21,197 nucleotides of DNA from a virus. Where the stretch lies: IMG/VR virus record IMGVR_UViG_3300029448_000529, positions 1 to 21,197 of that record; one strand, written 5' to 3'. Each line of letters starts with the position of its first letter. The first letter of the stretch is position 1. The position numbers and the translations under genes are program-made. Of this stretch, positions 6,644 through 17,325 are shown one piece after another. Below the pieces are notes generated by a model that saw nothing but the letters and a program-made list of their open reading frames with translations, searched no databases and had not been told where the DNA came from.

Positions 6644-7444
6644 TCAATCAGGATCTTGCCAATAATCTTTTATTGCAATTATTCCTCTTTGTGTTTTACT
6701 GTTCATTGGATATAACTTTCTAAAATTCTTATTATTTGGCTTAACTACAATTCCATCCGTAGGAATATAGTTTGAAAAGAATCGACTATCTAGCCATAAA
6801 TCATGGCACTTTTTTATATAGTCTCTTTTATTCTTTTTATCTGCTATTGCAAAACGTGGTATTTCAAAGCCCCAACCACTTTGCAAAAATCTAAGCTGAT
6901 CCAATTCAGTTGTATAACGATCAACTACTTGAAAAGCACAGAAATTAATTTGTGAATCAATCTTTTCAGGTGCTTTTTTTCTTATATGACCTGCTGCAAG
7001 TCTCTGTGATGTTGCTGGTGTTTCGTGAGGTGCGTAAAGTTCACCTCTAATATGAACAACACCTTTTGCATCAATAATCTGAGGAATATTTTCAATAAAA
7101 CGCATGTGATAAGTTTTATCTTTGCCTTTTCTATTGAAAGCAGCTACAAAAAGTCCATCAACATACCTAAGTAAAATTGCAATTCCATCAATCTTAGGTT
7201 GGATAATTAAAGTCTCATCGTCTGGAATTTTTTTGTACCAATCATCAAAAGAGTTTGTATCTATTCCTTTAAGTGCGAGTCCTTCATCAATCTTGCTAAG
7301 AACAGGATGATCTGGTGCTAGAGATTTTAATTGTTTTTCTAACTGATTAAATTCTTGATCGCTAATCCTTGCGAGTCCTGCCCTGTATAGTTCGCTATGC
7401 AATAAATACTTGCTTGCGAGTTTTTCAATGTCTTGGATGTCCAT
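6644..7444 (-). CDS. Stand-alone NAD-dependent DNA ligase adenylation domain, 266 aa
   Basis: NAD-dependent ligases seal nicks by first forming an enzyme-AMP intermediate. The N-terminus (HSELYRAG, ISDQEFNQLEKQL) matches the NMN-binding domain Ia. The adenylation motifs follow: KIDG (residues 84-87, K84 the AMP-accepting lysine), RGELY (133-137), DGIVVK (230-235) and a final IAIKDYW (256-262) at motif V. The protein then stops. The OB fold, zinc finger, helix-hairpin-helix and BRCT domains of full LigA (about 670 aa) are absent. All catalytic motifs of this domain appear intact, so it is a compact form and not a decayed fragment. The start at 7444 follows the leader CTATCTTTTATCTCTT. Confidence 0.88.
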   Translation of the reverse strand: MDIQDIEKLASKYLLHSELYRAGLARISDQEFNQLEKQLKSLAPDHPVLSKIDEGLALKGIDTNSFDDWYKKIPDDETLIIQPKIDGIAILLRYVDGLFVAAFNRKGKDKTYHMRFIENIPQIIDAKGVVHIRGELYAPHETPATSQRLAAGHIRKKAPEKIDSQINFCAFQVVDRYTTELDQLRFLQSGWGFEIPRFAIADKKNKRDYIKKCHDLWLDSRFFSNYIPTDGIVVKPNNKNFRKLYPMNSKTQRGIIAIKDYWQDPD

Positions 7445-8470: not shown

Positions 8471-10717
8471 TCAAATCTCTTGATATGAGTGGGTGGCAAC
8501 CTCGTCCAACCTAGACTCTTCTAGCTCATGGGTATGGACACCTATCAATTCTCGAATGTAGACCCATTTGCGACTGTTTTTTGGCCCTCTACGCTTTTTC
8601 ACAAGTCCCAAGTCTTTCAATATGGTTGCTACTTGCATCTGGTCATAGCGTGATTGTCTTTCTAAAGGTTTTTCAATTACCTCAGTTAATATTTTATTAG
8701 TGGTAAATTCTTGAAGTGCATTAACTGGTGCATTTACATAATCTGCGATCTTATTTTTCCAAGGATTATCTATTAAATATCTTTCATTTTTCTCGTTAAT
8801 TGTAAGTTCAGTTTCTACTGGAAGTTGCCAAGGTGTTTTATTTTTATACTCGCAAACAGCCTGTGACCAAAGTTGGTCAACTTCCATAGATAAGCCGTCA
8901 CAATTAATTTGATTTTGAATAGTACAAGATGTTTCTATAACCCAGAATCTTCTTGATCCAGTTTCATCCAAAAGGAAACCATCGTGTCTGTTAGTTGAAC
9001 CTACGATGATGCCTCTACGAGGAAAATCTTCTGTAGCTTTACCGTATGGAACTCTAAACATATCGGTTGATTGTGAGAGAAAAGCTTTAATTTCTCCAGA
9101 CTGTTTTTTAGAATTTATATGATCCAACTCGGACATCTCCATTATCCAAGAACGGTGCATGATCATTAATGCGTCTTTTGTAGAAATATCTTTTAAAGCA
9201 TCAGAGAAAAACTTACCGCCCAATACAGCCCAAAAAGAAGATTTCCTTGCACCTTGCGGCCCCATTAGAACACAAGCATTATCGAATTTGCAACCTGGTT
9301 CGTAAACCCTTGCTACTGCTGCGATCATGGTACATTTCAACATCTGATCGTAGATTGTTGGCTCTGGTAATGCAGCGTCTTCAGGTCTTAGGTAAGTGCT
9401 TGCAAGTCTGTCGATAGATATGGGAGAAGCATTTTTCTTGCAGTCTTCTAAATATTCTTTAACTGGGTCGTAGTCATTTTCTCTAGCAACTTGAACTACG
9501 CAGTCATAGGCCAAATCTTTGGAAATTTTATGTCCATGATCTGCAAGTCCTAAATAGAATCGTTCAGGTGATGCTGCGCCTTGACATACATTTTCATCAA
9601 ATTCAATTTGTTGAGTAAAAATGTTATATCTAAAGTTGCCTTCTTGCCTTAATGCAAAGAGTAAATCATGCGCCTCAAGTCTTTGTAATCTTTCGCTGCT
9701 GCGTTCTATTTGTGTTTCTTCATTATTAGGTTTTTGATTGTTACTGGCTTGCTCTTTCTTAGGGTTATTGAATAAGCTCCATCCTTTAGGTAAAACTGTT
9801 ACTGTTTTGCGAGGAACATAGCCATTTTTTATAGCCCAATACCAAAAAGTACCTGCTGTAATATCTTTACCGCCTGAGTTAGCAATTTGATCTATGCCAC
9901 CCCAAGAAGGAGAGTGAGATTGCATAAGATTTGTTGCGTAAACGCTGTCTTTACCAGCATCTTCGCAAGCTTTTATTAATCCCCAGAGTATATTTCTATA
10001 CATGTGATATGTATTACTACCAGGCGTTCTTTGAGGAATACAATTCAATGCTTTTTCCACGACCTCTATGGGTTCTTTTCTGTAGTCTTTGTACTCTGAA
10101 CTTTGTTTTATTTGCTCATTTACTGTGGCAGTTGGTAGACAACCTTCAATATCCTTGACGGAATAAAGTTTGTCAGAATTATGAATAATTGTAGTTAAAC
10201 CGCCTGCACTTCCATCTTCATTCATGTGATAAGTTCCAGGTAATCTCATCACTCTGGAAGGATTTTTTAATGCTCTATCTGCGTCTGCATGATCTAATAA
10301 TCTTTCTTGAATAGGCTTCCAAGTTTTTGGATCAATAGATTTTTTTAGAATCCAATAATTGTGTATGGATTTACCGCCTGTATCTATTTGAAGGCTTGGT
10401 TCGGGGAGTCCCAAGTCTTTCCAAGCAAAAATCTGATCTTCTTTCGGCCTATCATCCCATTCGCAGAAAAAAGCTTTGCAATGCGTGATTGAGGAATCGG
10501 TGTCGCCACCATCATTAACAACGATATAAACACCACGCCCTTCTTCTTGGCATTGCGTAATCCATTTAAGATCTGCATTAGATTTTTTACCACGATCACG
10601 ATCTTTAAGAGGATGACCTTTTGGATAGAAAGATCTAAGTCTGACTTGATCTTTTGTTTTGTTTAGAAGTTGGGTGAATATTCTCCATTGGTTACGATCT
10701 AGTTTTAATTCGCTCAT
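8471..10717 (-). CDS. RepB-like primase / VirE-type superfamily 3 helicase, 748 aa
   Basis: This is the main replication protein and would make primers and unwind the template. The N-terminal third resembles RepB/AEP-type primases, with FCEWDD (84-89, acidic metal site), TGGKSIHNYW (113-122) and KNPSRVMRLPGTYH (151-164). After a linker comes a VirE-type helicase: Walker A GPQGARKS (486-493), Walker B near WIMEMSELD (524-532), a sensor GSTNRHDGFL (573-582) and TGSRRFW (586-592). The C-terminal part probably carries a winged-helix domain. The start at 10717 is preceded by CTATCTCTTATCTCA and overlaps the preceding nuclease gene by 26 bases. Its length and domain order fit phage and plasmid primase-helicases. 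Confidence 0.92.
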   Translation of the reverse strand: MSELKLDRNQWRIFTQLLNKTKDQVRLRSFYPKGHPLKDRDRGKKSNADLKWITQCQEEGRGVYIVVNDGGDTDSSITHCKAFFCEWDDRPKEDQIFAWKDLGLPEPSLQIDTGGKSIHNYWILKKSIDPKTWKPIQERLLDHADADRALKNPSRVMRLPGTYHMNEDGSAGGLTTIIHNSDKLYSVKDIEGCLPTATVNEQIKQSSEYKDYRKEPIEVVEKALNCIPQRTPGSNTYHMYRNILWGLIKACEDAGKDSVYATNLMQSHSPSWGGIDQIANSGGKDITAGTFWYWAIKNGYVPRKTVTVLPKGWSLFNNPKKEQASNNQKPNNEETQIERSSERLQRLEAHDLLFALRQEGNFRYNIFTQQIEFDENVCQGAASPERFYLGLADHGHKISKDLAYDCVVQVARENDYDPVKEYLEDCKKNASPISIDRLASTYLRPEDAALPEPTIYDQMLKCTMIAAVARVYEPGCKFDNACVLMGPQGARKSSFWAVLGGKFFSDALKDISTKDALMIMHRSWIMEMSELDHINSKKQSGEIKAFLSQSTDMFRVPYGKATEDFPRRGIIVGSTNRHDGFLLDETGSRRFWVIETSCTIQNQINCDGLSMEVDQLWSQAVCEYKNKTPWQLPVETELTINEKNERYLIDNPWKNKIADYVNAPVNALQEFTTNKILTEVIEKPLERQSRYDQMQVATILKDLGLVKKRRGPKNSRKWVYIRELIGVHTHELEESRLDEVATHSYQEI

Positions 10718-11084
10718 TGAGATAAGAGATAGGATTAGAAATTATTTGAATAGCGTCTTGAACGCTACGAGCAACACCTGTGATGCCGCCTGCCTTATTT
10801 ACGCAGGAAAGCCAATTATGCTGCATTGGTGAAAGTTTGCCCTTAGCAGTTTTCACTTCGATACTTGTGAAGACTGCAAGTTTTTGTCCAACCATGTCTG
10901 AAGTGACTTCAATAGTTTTAAAGCCGATTAGATCAGAAGAACCTTTAGCTAAACCAAACTGAACTGGTCTTCCTGTTCTTAGGTCTGGAAGTTGTCCTAC
11001 TTGATTACGAAACATTCGGAGGTCGGGGAGTTGCCCCAAAGCAAGTCTTATCTCCTGTTGGAGTGTTGTTTCTTTGTTGCTCAA
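10692..11084 (-). CDS. VRR-NUC domain nuclease, 130 aa
   Basis: VRR-NUC proteins are PD-(D/E)XK nucleases related to Holliday-junction resolvases and flap nucleases. The signatures visible are an N-terminal helix (TTLQQEIRLALGQL), FRNQVGQ, FGLAKGSSDLIG (43-54, with the catalytic aspartate), IEVKTAKGKLSPMQ (75-88, ExK) and GGITGVARSVQDA (98-110). Its size is typical for stand-alone phage versions. The start is TTG at 11084, which gives MSNKETT and lies directly behind CTTATCCCTT. It overlaps the primase start by 26 bases, as in many phage helicase / VRR-NUC / VirE modules. GQLPDLR occurs twice (17-23, 30-36). Confidence 0.9.
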   Translation of the reverse strand: MSNKETTLQQEIRLALGQLPDLRMFRNQVGQLPDLRTGRPVQFGLAKGSSDLIGFKTIEVTSDMVGQKLAVFTSIEVKTAKGKLSPMQHNWLSCVNKAGGITGVARSVQDAIQIISNPISYLNERIKTRS

Positions 11085-11107
11085 AGGGATAAGTTCTTTT
11101 CATCAGA

Positions 11108-11797
11108 TTAAAACAGAAGTGTTTGAGTTGCAGCAAGATGGCTGGAGTCATATCTGGAGTTATCGCCTTTTGGATAGGGTTCTATTTCGTAAGCTAAGTT
11201 TCTAAGCATTTCTTTTTTATCCTTTTTTGTTCCAATAAAATAGAAATATCTGTGTTTTCGTGGCCTGTCTTTTAGATATAAATCGTCACCATAAATTGCT
11301 TTAAGTTTGTCAATCTTGCCTTTTTCTACTCCTCTGCCAGCGTGATCCATAACAGATGCACTATGCAAATGTTCCATACCTTTAATTTTGTAATCGGTGC
11401 GTTTTGCAGATAAGCCTGTGTAAATGAAATTGGTGGCTTGATAAATATATCCGTGGTGATTGAGAGAAGTGTCAGCGTAACTAACTACTACGACAGGGGA
11501 TGGAAGTTGTTTGAGTGTGGCTGAAACAAAGAAACTTAGCGAGTTTTTTGGAAGGTTATCGTTAACTACTAATCTATTTAGTTCTAAAAAATTATCTTGA
11601 TAGTGACCGTTGAAGGCATGTTTAATTAAGGTATGAGCAACAGGTCTGCCATAGGAACAGATACCAAGAAGCGAGTTGTTTTCATATAAGCCAAAAGCGT
11701 AAGAAATAGATGGAATTCTTTTTGCGTAGTGTTTATGTAAAAACCACTCCTTACATTCTTGATTCTTAATTTTTTGAACTTTATAATTATTTATCAC
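11108..11797 (-). CDS. mom: Mom-family DNA adenine hypermodification protein, 229 aa
   Basis: Mu Mom adds a carbamoylmethyl group to adenine N6 in phage DNA and so protects it from many restriction enzymes. This protein shows the family phrases in order: HYAKRIPSISYAFGLYE (23-39), GICSYGRPV (45-53), LELNRLVVND (71-80), KNSLSFFVS (84-92), VVSYADTSLNHHGYIYQATN (104-123) and GLSAKRTDYK (128-137). These fit the GNAT-like fold described for Mom. The start is GTG at 11797 and overlaps the stop of the preceding 146-residue gene (GTGA), so the pair is probably translated together. No Com-like zinc finger regulator is seen beside it. A modified host or own-DNA target sequence cannot be read from the protein. 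Confidence 0.9.
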   Translation of the reverse strand: MINNYKVQKIKNQECKEWFLHKHYAKRIPSISYAFGLYENNSLLGICSYGRPVAHTLIKHAFNGHYQDNFLELNRLVVNDNLPKNSLSFFVSATLKQLPSPVVVVSYADTSLNHHGYIYQATNFIYTGLSAKRTDYKIKGMEHLHSASVMDHAGRGVEKGKIDKLKAIYGDDLYLKDRPRKHRYFYFIGTKKDKKEMLRNLAYEIEPYPKGDNSRYDSSHLAATQTLLF

Positions 11798-12234
11798 TTA
11801 AAACGCCCCTTATCATCTACATCTAAATGTGAAGCATATAAATGCAACCCATCAAAGAAGCAGGGTTGGACATGATCCATAAAACTAATAGTGTTTTCTG
11901 TATTAAAAAAAGTTCTTGTTCTTGCTTGTCCTCCTCTGTCATGATTGATTTCAGTTAATGATATACCTTCAATTCCTCCATCTTTTTTGCACAAGATAGA
12001 ACAACATTCTTCCAGAATTTTCTTATCAATTCTTTCAAATTCTAAATCAAATTCTAATTCACCAACATAAGGCTTTCTAATAAAGAAAGAAATGCGTTTG
12101 TGTTGCTCGAAAACATCTGCATCAGTGTTTGTAGCATATCTAAGAATACTATCAATTTTTTGATCTTTCATTTTTGATCTAGCTTTTAAGCTTAAATCAA
12201 TTGCAAGAAGTTTGAAGTCAGAATTGTTAGTCAT
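11794..12234 (-). CDS. Unknown protein coupled to Mom, 146 aa
   Basis: I do not recognise this protein. It looks like a soluble mixed alpha/beta protein with LELEFDLEFER-like strands (FDLEFERIDKK), a cysteine pair (EECCSILCKKDGG), an RGGQARTRTFF stretch and a C-terminal HLYASHLDVDD segment. There is no membrane helix. It lies directly upstream of mom in the same operon, and its TGA overlaps the GTG start of mom. That close coupling suggests shared regulation or a shared task in DNA modification or its control. This is inference from position; the 146-residue length and sequence do not match Com. Confidence 0.7.
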   Translation of the reverse strand: MTNNSDFKLLAIDLSLKARSKMKDQKIDSILRYATNTDADVFEQHKRISFFIRKPYVGELEFDLEFERIDKKILEECCSILCKKDGGIEGISLTEINHDRGGQARTRTFFNTENTISFMDHVQPCFFDGLHLYASHLDVDDKGRFK

Positions 12235-12270
12235 TGTATTTAAAAATAATAGTTATGAAAGAAGAAGTAT

Positions 12271-13698
12271 CTAAGACCCCCAATTCCATTTTTCGTTTAA
12301 GCTGTTGTCAGCGGGTTTCATTGTTTTCATGCCTTTGTTTTTCAAGGCAAAATAAGCCCATCCTTTTTTGTAACCACGCCTTTCAGCAATAGCTAAGAAG
12401 TCCTGCAAGGTTTTTGCGTTTTTATATTCAGAATTTCTTTGAGTTTTTTCTTCAGCGTTAAGACGAACTTCTTCTCTTTTTAACTCAATTAATTCTGCTT
12501 CTTCAAATCTTATTTTGCGTCTTGCTATTTCTTTTTCAAATCCACAACAAGGACAAACACGTTGAGGTCTGTAGGTTGCAAAACATTTTTCACAAACAGT
12601 TACGGATGGAGCTTGTTCATTCTTTCTTTTAGATTTTGCTTTGGCATCTAAAGACCAATTTCTTACGTCATCAACAAAACCATGATCTCTTGTACTGTTT
12701 ACATGATCCAGAACTATGGCAACTTTATCTTTTTGCGGTCTGAGAATACGTCCGACTTGTTGCATGTATAACCCTTCAGATTTTGTCGGTCTGAGGAGGA
12801 TTGCACAGCCAATAATCGGTAAGTCAAATCCTTCTGAGACGACATCGACTGACACAAGGACTTGGATTGATCCATTGGATAGGTCATTAATAACCTGATC
12901 TCTATCATCATTCTTCATCTCACCTGTAATTATGTCAGCCTTAATTCCCGAATCATTAAACTTTTCAGCGACAGCTTCAGCATGATTTATATCACAACAA
13001 AAAGCTACTGATGGGACTCCATTAGCGTATTTTCGCCAATGTTCTATGGTGTCTCCTTTGATTACATATTCTTTCATCCTGTTTGCTACTTCTTCTTTAG
13101 CAAAATCACCTGCCCTAGTTCTTAACCCATCAAGGGATACAGGTTTAGGTGCTGCAAAAACTCGGTGAGGAGATAAATAACCTTGCTCAACAAGTTCAGG
13201 AATAGTTGGGCCAAGTATTAAATCGTCAAAAAATTCTTTTAGGCCACGACCATCTAAACGACATGGTGTTGCTGTAACTCCTAAACGAATTGCGTCTGGA
13301 TAATGGTTAAGAATTTTGCTCCAAGATCCTGCAACAGCATGATGGGCTTCATCAATAATGATTAGTGAGGGTTTGAATTTAGTGGTATCAAGTCTTCTGA
13401 CTAATGTTTGAACTGAGGCTATCTGGGTCGGGGAGTCTTTAGGTTTGAATTTTGCTGCAATTATTCCGTGGTCTACGTTAATGGCTGCGAGTTTTTCAGA
13501 TGCTTGTTTTATTAATTCTCTACGGTGAACAAGGATAAGTACATTGTTGTTTTTATGTAAGGCACTTTGAGTTATTTGAGAAAAAACTACAGTCTTTCCT
13601 GCTCCAGTTGGCATGACAAGTAACGCAGCTTTCGTACCTTGTCCGAACGAATTGCGACAATTTTGAATCGCTTCAGTTTGATACTTTCTTTGTTCCAT
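12271..13698 (-). CDS. Superfamily 2 DEAD/DEAH helicase, 475 aa
   Basis: This protein is an ATP-driven DNA or RNA translocase of the phage replication module. Motifs are an N-terminal RKYQTEAI (Q-like), Walker A MPTGAGKT (29-36), DEAH (116-119), GVTATPCRLD (140-149), SVDVVSEGFDLP (283-294) and QQVGRILRP (313-321). A zinc-binding segment follows: CEKC at 369-372 and CPCC at 382-385. The C-terminus has a basic charged helix. A GTG start at 13713 is possible, but I choose the ATG at 13698 (MEQRKYQ) because it leaves the divergent promoter region free. It is the first gene of the leftward arm, followed after 36 bases by the 146-residue gene. Confidence 0.95.
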   Translation of the reverse strand: MEQRKYQTEAIQNCRNSFGQGTKAALLVMPTGAGKTVVFSQITQSALHKNNNVLILVHRRELIKQASEKLAAINVDHGIIAAKFKPKDSPTQIASVQTLVRRLDTTKFKPSLIIIDEAHHAVAGSWSKILNHYPDAIRLGVTATPCRLDGRGLKEFFDDLILGPTIPELVEQGYLSPHRVFAAPKPVSLDGLRTRAGDFAKEEVANRMKEYVIKGDTIEHWRKYANGVPSVAFCCDINHAEAVAEKFNDSGIKADIITGEMKNDDRDQVINDLSNGSIQVLVSVDVVSEGFDLPIIGCAILLRPTKSEGLYMQQVGRILRPQKDKVAIVLDHVNSTRDHGFVDDVRNWSLDAKAKSKRKNEQAPSVTVCEKCFATYRPQRVCPCCGFEKEIARRKIRFEEAELIELKREEVRLNAEEKTQRNSEYKNAKTLQDFLAIAERRGYKKGWAYFALKNKGMKTMKPADNSLNEKWNWGS

Positions 13699-13700
13699 GT

Positions 13701-13750
13701 GGTTGCATCTCACAGTATCAGGGTATATGATGTGACAAGTTTATGCAACC
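13701..13750. promoter_or_regulatory. Divergent promoter with palindromic operator
   Basis: GGTTGCAT (13701-13708) is mirrored by ATGCAACC (13743-13750). Inside these arms TCACA (13710-13714) is mirrored by TGTGA (13731-13735). Rightward, TTGCAT at 13703 and TATGAT at 13726 stand 17 bases apart, a near-perfect sigma70-type promoter for the exonuclease operon. Leftward, TTGCAT or TTGTCA with a weaker -10 could serve the helicase operon. A single symmetric binding site would touch both -35 regions, so one regulator may switch both arms. Confidence 0.75.
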
Positions 13751-13753
13751 CTT

Positions 13754-14614
13754 ATGAAAGGTAATGTCCAGCTAACTAACGAAGAGTATCACTCTAAAAA
13801 AGAGTACATTTCAAAGTCTGCTTTAGATGCTGCAAATAAAAGTGGGCTTCATTTTCAGCATTATGTAGAAGGGCCAAAATCAAAGCCAACTCCAGCGATG
13901 CGAATTGGATCTGCTTTTCATGGATTAATTCTGGAGCCTGATGTTTTTGATGATGAGTTTATTTACAAACCTGAATTTCTAAATGCAAGAAGTAAGGAGG
14001 GTAAAGAATGGAAGGCTACTCAAGAAGAAGCTGGAAAAACTGTTCTTAACGAAGACGATAAGGAACAGTTAGAAGCTATGAAAAAGTCCTTATTTGATTG
14101 CGCTCCTGCTAAAAAATTATTATCTGCTGCTGGTAAAGCAGAGCAAAGTTATTTTTGGGAAGACAAAGAAACTGGTCTTGGCTGCAAGTGCCGTCCTGAT
14201 TATTTGCTAGAAGATGGAGGAACAATTGTAGATTTAAAAACTACAACCGATGCTTCTTACAGAGGTTTTTTAAAAAGCATTTCTAACTTCAGGTATCACG
14301 TTCAATCTGGCTGGTACATGAATGGTTTAGAGCAAGCAACTGGTGAAAGACCAGACCGTTTTATTTTTATTGCAGTAGAAAAAACTGCTCCTTATGGAGT
14401 TGGTGTTTATGAGGCTGACTTGTATATGACCGTTAATGGTTATGACCAAGCCAGAATTGATTTAGAAAAGATTGCTAAGTGGAAAGAAGAGGAAAAATAT
14501 CCAAACTACTGCACCGAAATACAGCAAATCAGTTTGCCATCTTGGATGACTGGTGCTGTAAAAGGTAAGCCTCCTGCTGGCTATGACTCTATTCCTGACA
14601 TTACTTTGTTCTAA
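13754..14614 (+). CDS. RecE / lambda-exonuclease-like PD-(D/E)XK nuclease, 286 aa
   Basis: This is a 5'-3' exonuclease of the type that pairs with RecT annealing proteins. Visible family features are MRIGSAFHGLILEP (49-62, with H56), a glutamate in EQSYFW (130), CRPDYLLEDGG (146-156), IVDLKTTTDAS (158-168, the D160/K162 catalytic core) and a YHVQSGWYMNGL helix (181-192, with Q184). These match the PDDEXK/RecE-like (DUF3799) family, whose members are often about 260-300 residues. The start at 13754 is the first ATG after the promoter at 13703-13731. The stop overlaps the next start (TAATG). Confidence 0.9.
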   Translation: MKGNVQLTNEEYHSKKEYISKSALDAANKSGLHFQHYVEGPKSKPTPAMRIGSAFHGLILEPDVFDDEFIYKPEFLNARSKEGKEWKATQEEAGKTVLNEDDKEQLEAMKKSLFDCAPAKKLLSAAGKAEQSYFWEDKETGLGCKCRPDYLLEDGGTIVDLKTTTDASYRGFLKSISNFRYHVQSGWYMNGLEQATGERPDRFIFIAVEKTAPYGVGVYEADLYMTVNGYDQARIDLEKIAKWKEEEKYPNYCTEIQQISLPSWMTGAVKGKPPAGYDSIPDITLF

Positions 14615-14790: not shown

Positions 14791-14930
14791 CTGATCAATT
14801 TAATCGTTTGTTGATGAAAGAAATTAACGAACACAAAGCATCTATTGAACGCCTTGAAAACAAACTCGACAAAGTACTTGGTGCTTTTGAAATCTTATTA
14901 ACTTCTGTACCAAAAAAGAAAAATGACTGA
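14787..14930 (+). CDS. Short coiled-coil protein, 47 aa
   Basis: The protein is one continuous predicted helix with heptad-type spacing (FNRLLMKEINEHKASIERLE, then KLDKVLGAFEILL) and a lysine-rich end. The start overlaps the preceding stop by four bases (ATGA), and the RecT start lies inside its last codons (8-base overlap). Such peptides may form dimers or bind a partner. Sitting between the nuclease and RecT, it could link the two; that is inference. Confidence 0.75.
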   Translation: MTDQFNRLLMKEINEHKASIERLENKLDKVLGAFEILLTSVPKKKND

Positions 14931-15609
14931 ATCAGCATTAACAAATACTCCTGAGTCTTCCGTTTACAAAAACGAAGGATCATTTGAGTTATATCAACGA
15001 ATGGCTAAATCATTAGCCCAAAGCAAATTAGTTCCTACTGCTTATCAAGGACAAGATGGATTACCAAATTGTCTGGTAGCTCTTGAGATGGCAAATCGCA
15101 TGAACATTAGTCCTTTAGTGGTCATGCAAAATATGAATGTTATTCATGGAAAGCCAAGCTGGTCTGCTCAGTTTGTAATTGCAACGATTACAGGATGCGG
15201 CAGGTTTGAGGACTTTGATTATGAAGAGAAAGGTACAAAGGCTATCCGATGTAAAGCCATTAGAAGAAAAGACGGAAAGGAGGTCTTTGGTGCATGGGTA
15301 ACGATGGAAATGGCACAAAAAGAAGGCTGGACTCGCAACAGTAAATGGTCAACTATGCCACAATTGATGTTGCGTTATAGGGCAGCAACTTTCTTTGGGA
15401 GACAATATGTGGCAGATTTGCTCCTTGGGATACAAACTGAGGATGAAATAGTTGACATCCAACCTGTGAATGTAACTGTGCCAAACACACCCCATGAGGC
15501 TGCCATCGCAGAACCAAAAGAAACTGAACCTGAGTTTAGAGATGGCAAATGGAGGCCACCTCTAACTGAGGAAGAAAAACCAACCATAGGTGATGAATTT
15601 GACTTCTGA
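14923..15609 (+). CDS. recT: RecT-like single-strand annealing protein, 228 aa
   Basis: RecT proteins coat single-stranded DNA and anneal complementary strands after the exonuclease has resected an end. The RecT-type phrases seen are ELYQRMAKSLAQSKLVPTAY (22-41), LVALEMANRMNISPLVVMQN (51-70), IHGKPSWSAQFVIA (74-87), TMPQLMLRYRAATFFGRQYV and ADLLLGIQTEDE. The C-terminal part is acidic and proline-rich and probably flexible. The length is slightly below that of E. coli RecT (269 aa). It starts at 14923 inside the preceding gene and ends 17 bases inside the next, in one operon with the RecE-like nuclease. Confidence 0.9.
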   Translation: MTESALTNTPESSVYKNEGSFELYQRMAKSLAQSKLVPTAYQGQDGLPNCLVALEMANRMNISPLVVMQNMNVIHGKPSWSAQFVIATITGCGRFEDFDYEEKGTKAIRCKAIRRKDGKEVFGAWVTMEMAQKEGWTRNSKWSTMPQLMLRYRAATFFGRQYVADLLLGIQTEDEIVDIQPVNVTVPNTPHEAAIAEPKETEPEFRDGKWRPPLTEEEKPTIGDEFDF

Positions 15610-16377: not shown

Positions 16378-17325
16378 ATGCGAAGACGTACTAGCGCAAA
16401 AAAGGCTCTTACTGCAAAAGCCAATCAAACTAAGATTGATAACTCAAAAGTTTCTTTTGAGATTGAATCTATTGACAAGCAATTAGCTACAGATTATTTA
16501 GCTACTAACTTTGAAAACAATAGAAAAGTTAGATCTTCTTCTGTTTCTAAAATAGTTGAAGATATTAAAGACGGTAATTTCCATTTAAGTTGGGATTGCC
16601 TTGCCTTTAATGAAGAAGGCCAATTAGTTAATGGTCAACACAGATTATCTGCTGTTATAGAAGCTGATATTCCTTGCTTGTTTTATGTTTTAAGAAACAT
16701 AGATCATTCAACGGTCAAGCATTTCGATATTGGTAATAAGCGAAGCCAAGCTGATCGTATTTCAGTTCATGGGACACCAATGCACCCTAAAGCTTGTGCT
16801 GCTATCAAAGCTATGTTTGGTGACTGGGATGCTAATTTCACAGGATCAGCCAAGTTTGGTAATGCTAAATTTGATGACTTAATTGCTTCTTACTACAGCA
16901 GACATTCTGAGTATTTTGAGCAACTTGAAGCTGATGGATATTTTAAAGCGAAATACATAGGCAACTATGTTGCAGCAGCTTTCAAAATCTTTTTAGAGAT
17001 GAAAGTTGGGAAAGCAAAGTTCAATGAATACCCTCATGAGATGGAACCTTACGAAAGAAGTACTTACTGGTTGGATTTGTGTACCGATGGCAAATCTAAA
17101 GACACGATGATCGATTACAACACAGATCAAGCACCGTTTAAGCTTAAAGAAAAGCTAATTGCTAGGAAAGGCTTAGGTAAAACTATGTATGGGCAAGATG
17201 CTTTCAAGCTTCATTGCGTGGCTGCTTATTACTTTATGCAAGGCAGATGCCCAAACATAAGAGTTGACAATTTAAAAGGAGATCCTTTTAGTGTCTTTAG
17301 AGGGTTGTCCGCTTCAAATGTATAA
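16378..17325 (+). CDS. ParB-like N-terminal domain protein (VNGQHR motif), 315 aa
   Basis: An N-terminal ParB/Srx-type domain is seen: SSSVSKIVEDIKDGNFHLSW (53-72), then the signature VNGQHRLSAVIEA (84-96) and FDIGNKRSQADRIS (116-129). This N-terminal pattern is common in phage proteins of 250-350 residues. Chromosomal ParB uses a related domain as a CTPase clamp, but the helix-turn-helix of true ParB is not obvious here. The long C-terminal helical part is unrecognised. The start at 16378 follows TATCTTTTATTTTTAATAC and a second TATCTTCT. A role in phage DNA partition, or DNA binding and nicking, is inference. Confidence 0.85.
   Translation: MRRRTSAKKALTAKANQTKIDNSKVSFEIESIDKQLATDYLATNFENNRKVRSSSVSKIVEDIKDGNFHLSWDCLAFNEEGQLVNGQHRLSAVIEADIPCLFYVLRNIDHSTVKHFDIGNKRSQADRISVHGTPMHPKACAAIKAMFGDWDANFTGSAKFGNAKFDDLIASYYSRHSEYFEQLEADGYFKAKYIGNYVAAAFKIFLEMKVGKAKFNEYPHEMEPYERSTYWLDLCTDGKSKDTMIDYNTDQAPFKLKEKLIARKGLGKTMYGQDAFKLHCVAAYYFMQGRCPNIRVDNLKGDPFSVFRGLSASNV

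Follow-up and report, generated by a model that had tools for sequence, protein, structure and literature searches.

A Com-less Mom-family gene in a viral replication cluster: probable interchangeable cargo with an optional insert upstream

The virus record IMGVR_UViG_3300029448_000529 from IMG/VR (21,197 nucleotides of a marine phage, analysed at its full length and called the window hereafter) carries on its minus strand a gene for a 229-residue protein resembling Mom, the DNA modification enzyme of Mu (mom, 11108..11797, GTG start), and immediately upstream of it, likewise on the minus strand, an open reading frame (ORF) for 146 residues, which we name p146 (11794..12234). How does a mom gene come to lie among replication genes without its regulator Com, and is p146 a dedicated partner of Mom? 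We find that this Mom is probably one of several cargoes exchanged in a variable slot between a helicase and a VRR-NUC nuclease gene, translated along with the replication proteins, and that p146 is probably a younger, optional insert in that slot.

The first-pass annotation, made without database searches, had called the 229-residue protein a Mom, and this call is right: the protein matches the Pfam family Mom (PF25680) with E 6.4e-43 and 147 bits (curated cut-off 27), as well as phrog_1384, ‘Mom-like DNA modification protein’, with E 1.2e-58, and the structure of Mu Mom (PDB 8bv8; P06018) is its only significant solved relative by sequence (phmmer E 9.2e-14). A model computed from 37 relatives (predicted local distance difference test score, pLDDT, 84) retrieves 8bv8 first in a Foldseek search (E 1.8e-12), ahead of other GNAT proteins at 3e-4, so that no other acetyltransferase family is preferred by structure. 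Ser 124, which is mutated in the inactive Mu structure, aligns with S88 of the window protein, a residue invariant in the 37-sequence alignment; the KHY and SFAD (SxAD) motifs are kept at H23-Y24 and S106/A108/D109, and the YQA-N motif is conserved as well. Although the two proteins share just 25% identity and the window protein is devoid of the N-terminal extension of Mu Mom, it is a genuine member of the Mom family.

The genomic setting, by contrast, is not that of Mu, where mom follows the invertase gene at the right end. Along the minus strand of the window, a superfamily II DNA helicase of 480 aa (12271..13713; PF04851/PF00271, phrog_16 E 5e-109) is followed by p146, mom, a VRR-NUC nuclease of 130 aa (10692..11084; PF08774, E 3e-9) and a VapE-type primase/helicase of 748 aa (8471..10717; PF05272, E 4e-67), which belongs to the conserved replication backbone; genes for a tail-type protein and for a compact NAD-dependent ligase come next. 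The identification of the genes on both sides bears out the earlier placement of mom inside a replication gene cluster, and the locus does not represent a Mu-type com-mom unit: mom is overlapped by no Com gene and, lying between helicase and VRR-NUC genes, is not set apart from replication genes. The Com zinc ribbon (PF10122, E <= 1) remained unmatched in eight records, that is, the window, its closest long relative (the 51-kb IMG/VR contig G001, loci L074-L077) and six other Mom-bearing records, all of which may be fragments, so that absence from the genomes is unproven; beside mom itself Com is lacking, as had been noted before, its place upstream being taken by the unrelated ORF for 146 residues.

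A missing Com is not odd, because several cultured phages carry Mom without an annotated Com next to replication genes. In the marine Roseobacter phage CRP-902, the helicase, VRR-nuclease and Mom (gp22) genes form a chain of overlaps in this order; in Salmonella phage VSiP, Mom overlaps the DNA polymerase gene; and in Microbacterium phage MenE, Mom follows DnaB, SSB and a ParB-like protein. CRP-902 gp22, annotated as hypothetical, differs from the window protein in being encoded after rather than before VRR-NUC, in sharing 36% identity with it and in lacking p146, while the Mom-like proteins of VSiP and FSL SP-031 come from another phage group and are 30-33% identical over two thirds of the protein. 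Mom had earlier been described in jumbo phages and bacteria (PMC7824862). A Mom 87% identical to that of the window is moreover found in a different backbone (L008-L013; mom at L012:7018-7707), flanked by genes which, named by eye, look like a RecB-like exonuclease and RusA; mom thus appears to move between phage types.

To define what may occupy the position of mom, proteins related to VRR-NUC and to the helicase were gathered, the genes between the two were listed, and helicases were collapsed at 95% identity. Among the resulting 60 distinct backbones, 28 slots were empty (no ORF of at least 45 aa called), 10 held a DNA methyltransferase, 3 Mom (two of them together with p146), 6 an HNH gene only, and 13 other genes. 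The methyltransferases belong to the C5-cytosine type in seven backbones (five scanned with PF00145, E 5e-39 to 3e-43; two labelled by a profile built from those five) and to phrog_757, ‘DNA methyltransferase’, in the other three (assigned by scanning in two cases and by a sequence motif in the third), and seven of the ten C5 methyltransferases encountered in the examined loci lie in the slot, the remainder being close to the same helicase or VRR genes. L101 and L102, whose helicases are at least 95% identical to each other, differ in slot content, only one of the two carrying a cargo. In the VRR-NUC cluster of Synechococcus phage S-LBS1, the cultured phage whose helicase matches best, a DNA modification methylase lies between two helicases. 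Hence, the helicase to VRR-NUC interval, which spans positions 10692-13713 of the window and was followed through loci L093-L191, is a variable cargo slot in which Mom interchanges with cytosine methyltransferases. The latter are from an unrelated family (PF00145) and act on cytosine instead of adenine, but share with Mom the slot, a DNA-modifying function and the manner of attachment: in L101, L117, L118 and L123 an ATGA is common to the helicase stop and the methyltransferase start, and an ATGA is likewise present at the helicase stop of L175.

These observations lead us to propose that Mom serves as interchangeable anti-restriction cargo in the slot; in other backbones its place is either vacant or taken by a DNA methyltransferase (of the cytosine-5 or another type), by an HNH gene, or by the two together. 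By analogy with its Mu relative, the window Mom would modify adenines of the phage’s own DNA and thereby shield it from host restriction. GATC occurs 82 times in the window where 71 are expected, which is about the expected frequency, and does not form a special cluster at mom. Since a four-base ATGA overlap often links cargo to the helicase gene, co-translation with the replication proteins is probable; Mom would be made alongside them, either via the helicase directly or via p146, and the DNA might then be modified while it is being copied, with no need of a Com switch.

The position of mom accordingly points to early expression. The alternative, that mom is expressed late with same-strand genes on the terminase side, as in Mu, through a control other than Com, draws on the arrangement in G001, where the minus-strand run that includes the helicase and mom extends beyond the tail-type gene as far as an HNH gene and the terminase large subunit. 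It seems rather unlikely to us, considering that replication genes immediately adjoin mom on both sides, that the gene overlaps imply its translation together with either the helicase or p146, and that scans of the locus revealed no promoter or terminator above chance between mom and its neighbours or elsewhere; a promoter-like site with 9 of 12 matches before p146 (12246-12273, minus strand) is not meaningful on its own. A paper on a Listeria P100-like phage contains no statement on the timing of Mom.

We now turn to p146, for which the first-pass annotation had correctly described both the overlap, p146 and mom sharing exactly the four bases GTGA (11797-11794), and the lack of a described family. 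No significant match was obtained in Pfam, NCBIfam, PHROG, PADLOC or PDB; searches of phages, plasmids, genome contigs and viral contigs yielded three close relatives only, and a profile search of 11,110 ORFs from 192 loci added nothing further (best E 0.95). p146 is nonetheless a real gene under purifying selection, because its four alleles, 94-96% identical, exhibit ratios of nonsynonymous to synonymous divergence (dN/dS) of 0.12-0.33. An AlphaFold2 model from the four-sequence alignment reached a pLDDT of 37. A role as acidic DNA mimic is not favoured, the protein having a pI (isoelectric point) of 5.95 and a net charge of -3, which is not strongly acidic.

The relation between p146 and mom is best judged from a natural sister of the window, L005 (contig G002), which has the same order of helicase, mom, VRR-NUC and VapE genes and a Mom 97% identical to that of the window, but is devoid of p146. 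The L005 helicase ends in TGGGGATGA, and mom starts at that ATG, yielding an ATGA overlap; exactly at this join the window has about 480 additional bases, and its mom starts with GTG instead. In an alignment of the window with L002, L004, L006 and L005, the p146-bearing stretch missing from L005 corresponds to window positions 11798..12277 (minus strand), with limits that are approximate to a few bases. Synonymous divergence (dS) of mom amounts to 0.21 between L005 and L002, whose allele is p146-linked, and to 0.24 between the window and L002; the L005 gene is therefore within the p146-linked range, and presence of p146 does not track the history of mom. Relative to L004, dS values are 0.16-0.20 for p146 and 0.21-0.50 for the flanking genes in most comparisons, while other pairs are mixed. 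Since p146 has diverged less than its flanks in most of these comparisons, the sequences suggest that it spread more recently than they did. Between the window and L002 (mom at 1460-2149), dS is 0.24 for mom, 0.04 for the helicase, 0.06 for p146 and 0.01 for VRR-NUC; the excess in mom suggests recombination within the cluster.

One may ask whether p146 is nevertheless a Mom-specific partner acting via translational coupling, be it as a regulator replacing Com, as a subunit for target choice or as a brake on toxicity. Each of the four p146 copies immediately precedes mom and shares with it the same GTGA, p146 is maintained by selection, and no p146 was found apart from mom in the viral, genome, plasmid and phage collections. 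These four copies (the window and three other contigs) come, however, from one lineage and one slot and are not independent, so that the four-of-four co-occurrence represents a single observation. L005, in which p146 is missing, has a nearly identical mom at the corresponding position, and by dS this gene ranks among the p146-linked alleles; among 70 related Mom-bearing IMG/VR contigs, p146 went undetected in 67, some of which end at or near mom. Nor is the stop-start overlap special, because overlaps of 1-8 bases with an ORF upstream occur in 22 of 47 distinct Mom genes, the genes upstream being of many kinds, and predicted RNA folding around the mom and p146 starts cannot be told from that of shuffled sequences, the mom start region being unremarkable in both the window and L006. 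The earlier suggestion of a dedicated partner is thus not upheld, and we consider such a partner unlikely. Mom and p146 do not constitute an obligate system, as the occurrence of this Mom alone in L005 attests, and since a natural sister does without it, p146 is probably not required for Mom.

A further alternative would make p146 a nuclease paired with Mom, either in the manner of a restriction-modification system or as a killer of competitors, with Mom protecting the phage’s own DNA. There is precedent for small second proteins adjacent or fused to Mom in the couples of Mom and restriction endonuclease of jumbo phages and of cyanophage DSL-LC03 (PMC7824862), an annotated type II restriction endonuclease overlapping mom in the latter, and HNH genes precede and overlap C5 methyltransferase genes in two backbones of the same slot (L116, L120). 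In those couples, however, the second protein is recognizable or annotated as a nuclease, whereas p146 matched no nuclease at any of the thresholds used, which speaks against a restriction-modification pair, and the comparison with the DSL-LC03 nuclease by hhalign is at noise level; the HNH protein of L120 matches homing-endonuclease models, suggesting selfish insertion rather than restriction. We thus regard a nuclease role as very unlikely.

The preferred reading remains that of a second, younger and optional insert between helicase and mom, which would be selected for a function of its own; p146 may perhaps be an independent accessory gene, for example another anti-defence or selfish cargo gene. 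Several points weigh against this account of slot and insert. The four p146 copies next to mom, and nowhere else, are what a Mom-specific role would predict, and selection on p146 together with its precise overlap points in the same direction; the 13 ‘other’ backbones hold genes unrelated to DNA modification, such as those for a ParB-like and a ribbon-helix-helix-like protein; the ‘empty’ class depends on the length threshold for calling ORFs; and since backbones were picked by helicase or VRR similarity, the counts are not population estimates. It also seems quite unlikely that the bolder version holds, in which p146 would found a new family controlling timing, target choice or self-toxicity of Mom in place of Com, and in which the helicase to VRR-NUC gap would be a dedicated exchange site for adenine and cytosine modification enzymes in response to changing host restriction. 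On the reading favoured here, Mom can be viewed as exchangeable cargo of the replication operons of phages, occupying a site where other phages carry DNA methyltransferases, and when and why phages switch the disguise of their DNA becomes a testable question in a defined locus, for which contigs G001 and G002 offer a natural pair with and without p146.

The description of the cluster as cyanophage-like is borne out in part: the best matches of VapE are from S-LBS1 and S-2L and that of the helicase is from S-LBS1, but the terminase of G001 is nearest to Roseobacter CRP phages, with S-LBS1 next. Beyond the helicase, two divergent genes on the plus strand were identified: a DUF3799 PDDEXK exonuclease (13754..14614; PF12684, E 6e-41), conserved in related loci and hence a marker of the backbone, and a RecT-like annealing protein (14923..15609; phrog_561, E 1e-66) of the divergent recombination operon.

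With regard to other slot contents, several backbones (as at L158:6757-8054 and L172:6796-7997) have there a ParB-like protein (phrog_5931) together with a small protein of ribbon-helix-helix-like type; the window encodes a relative of this ParB-like protein elsewhere (16378-17325), and in phage MenE the gene directly before Mom is annotated as ParB-like. At L119:6648-7928 the slot is occupied by three short ORFs of opposite orientation, and Pfam gave no match for the two larger ones (166 and 214 aa). The compact NAD-dependent ligase of the window (6644-7444, 266 aa) is matched in its adenylation and N-terminal domains only. Finally, G001 encodes a protein of 2917 aa (L076:4763-13516) with 18 stretches resembling a tail fibre family.
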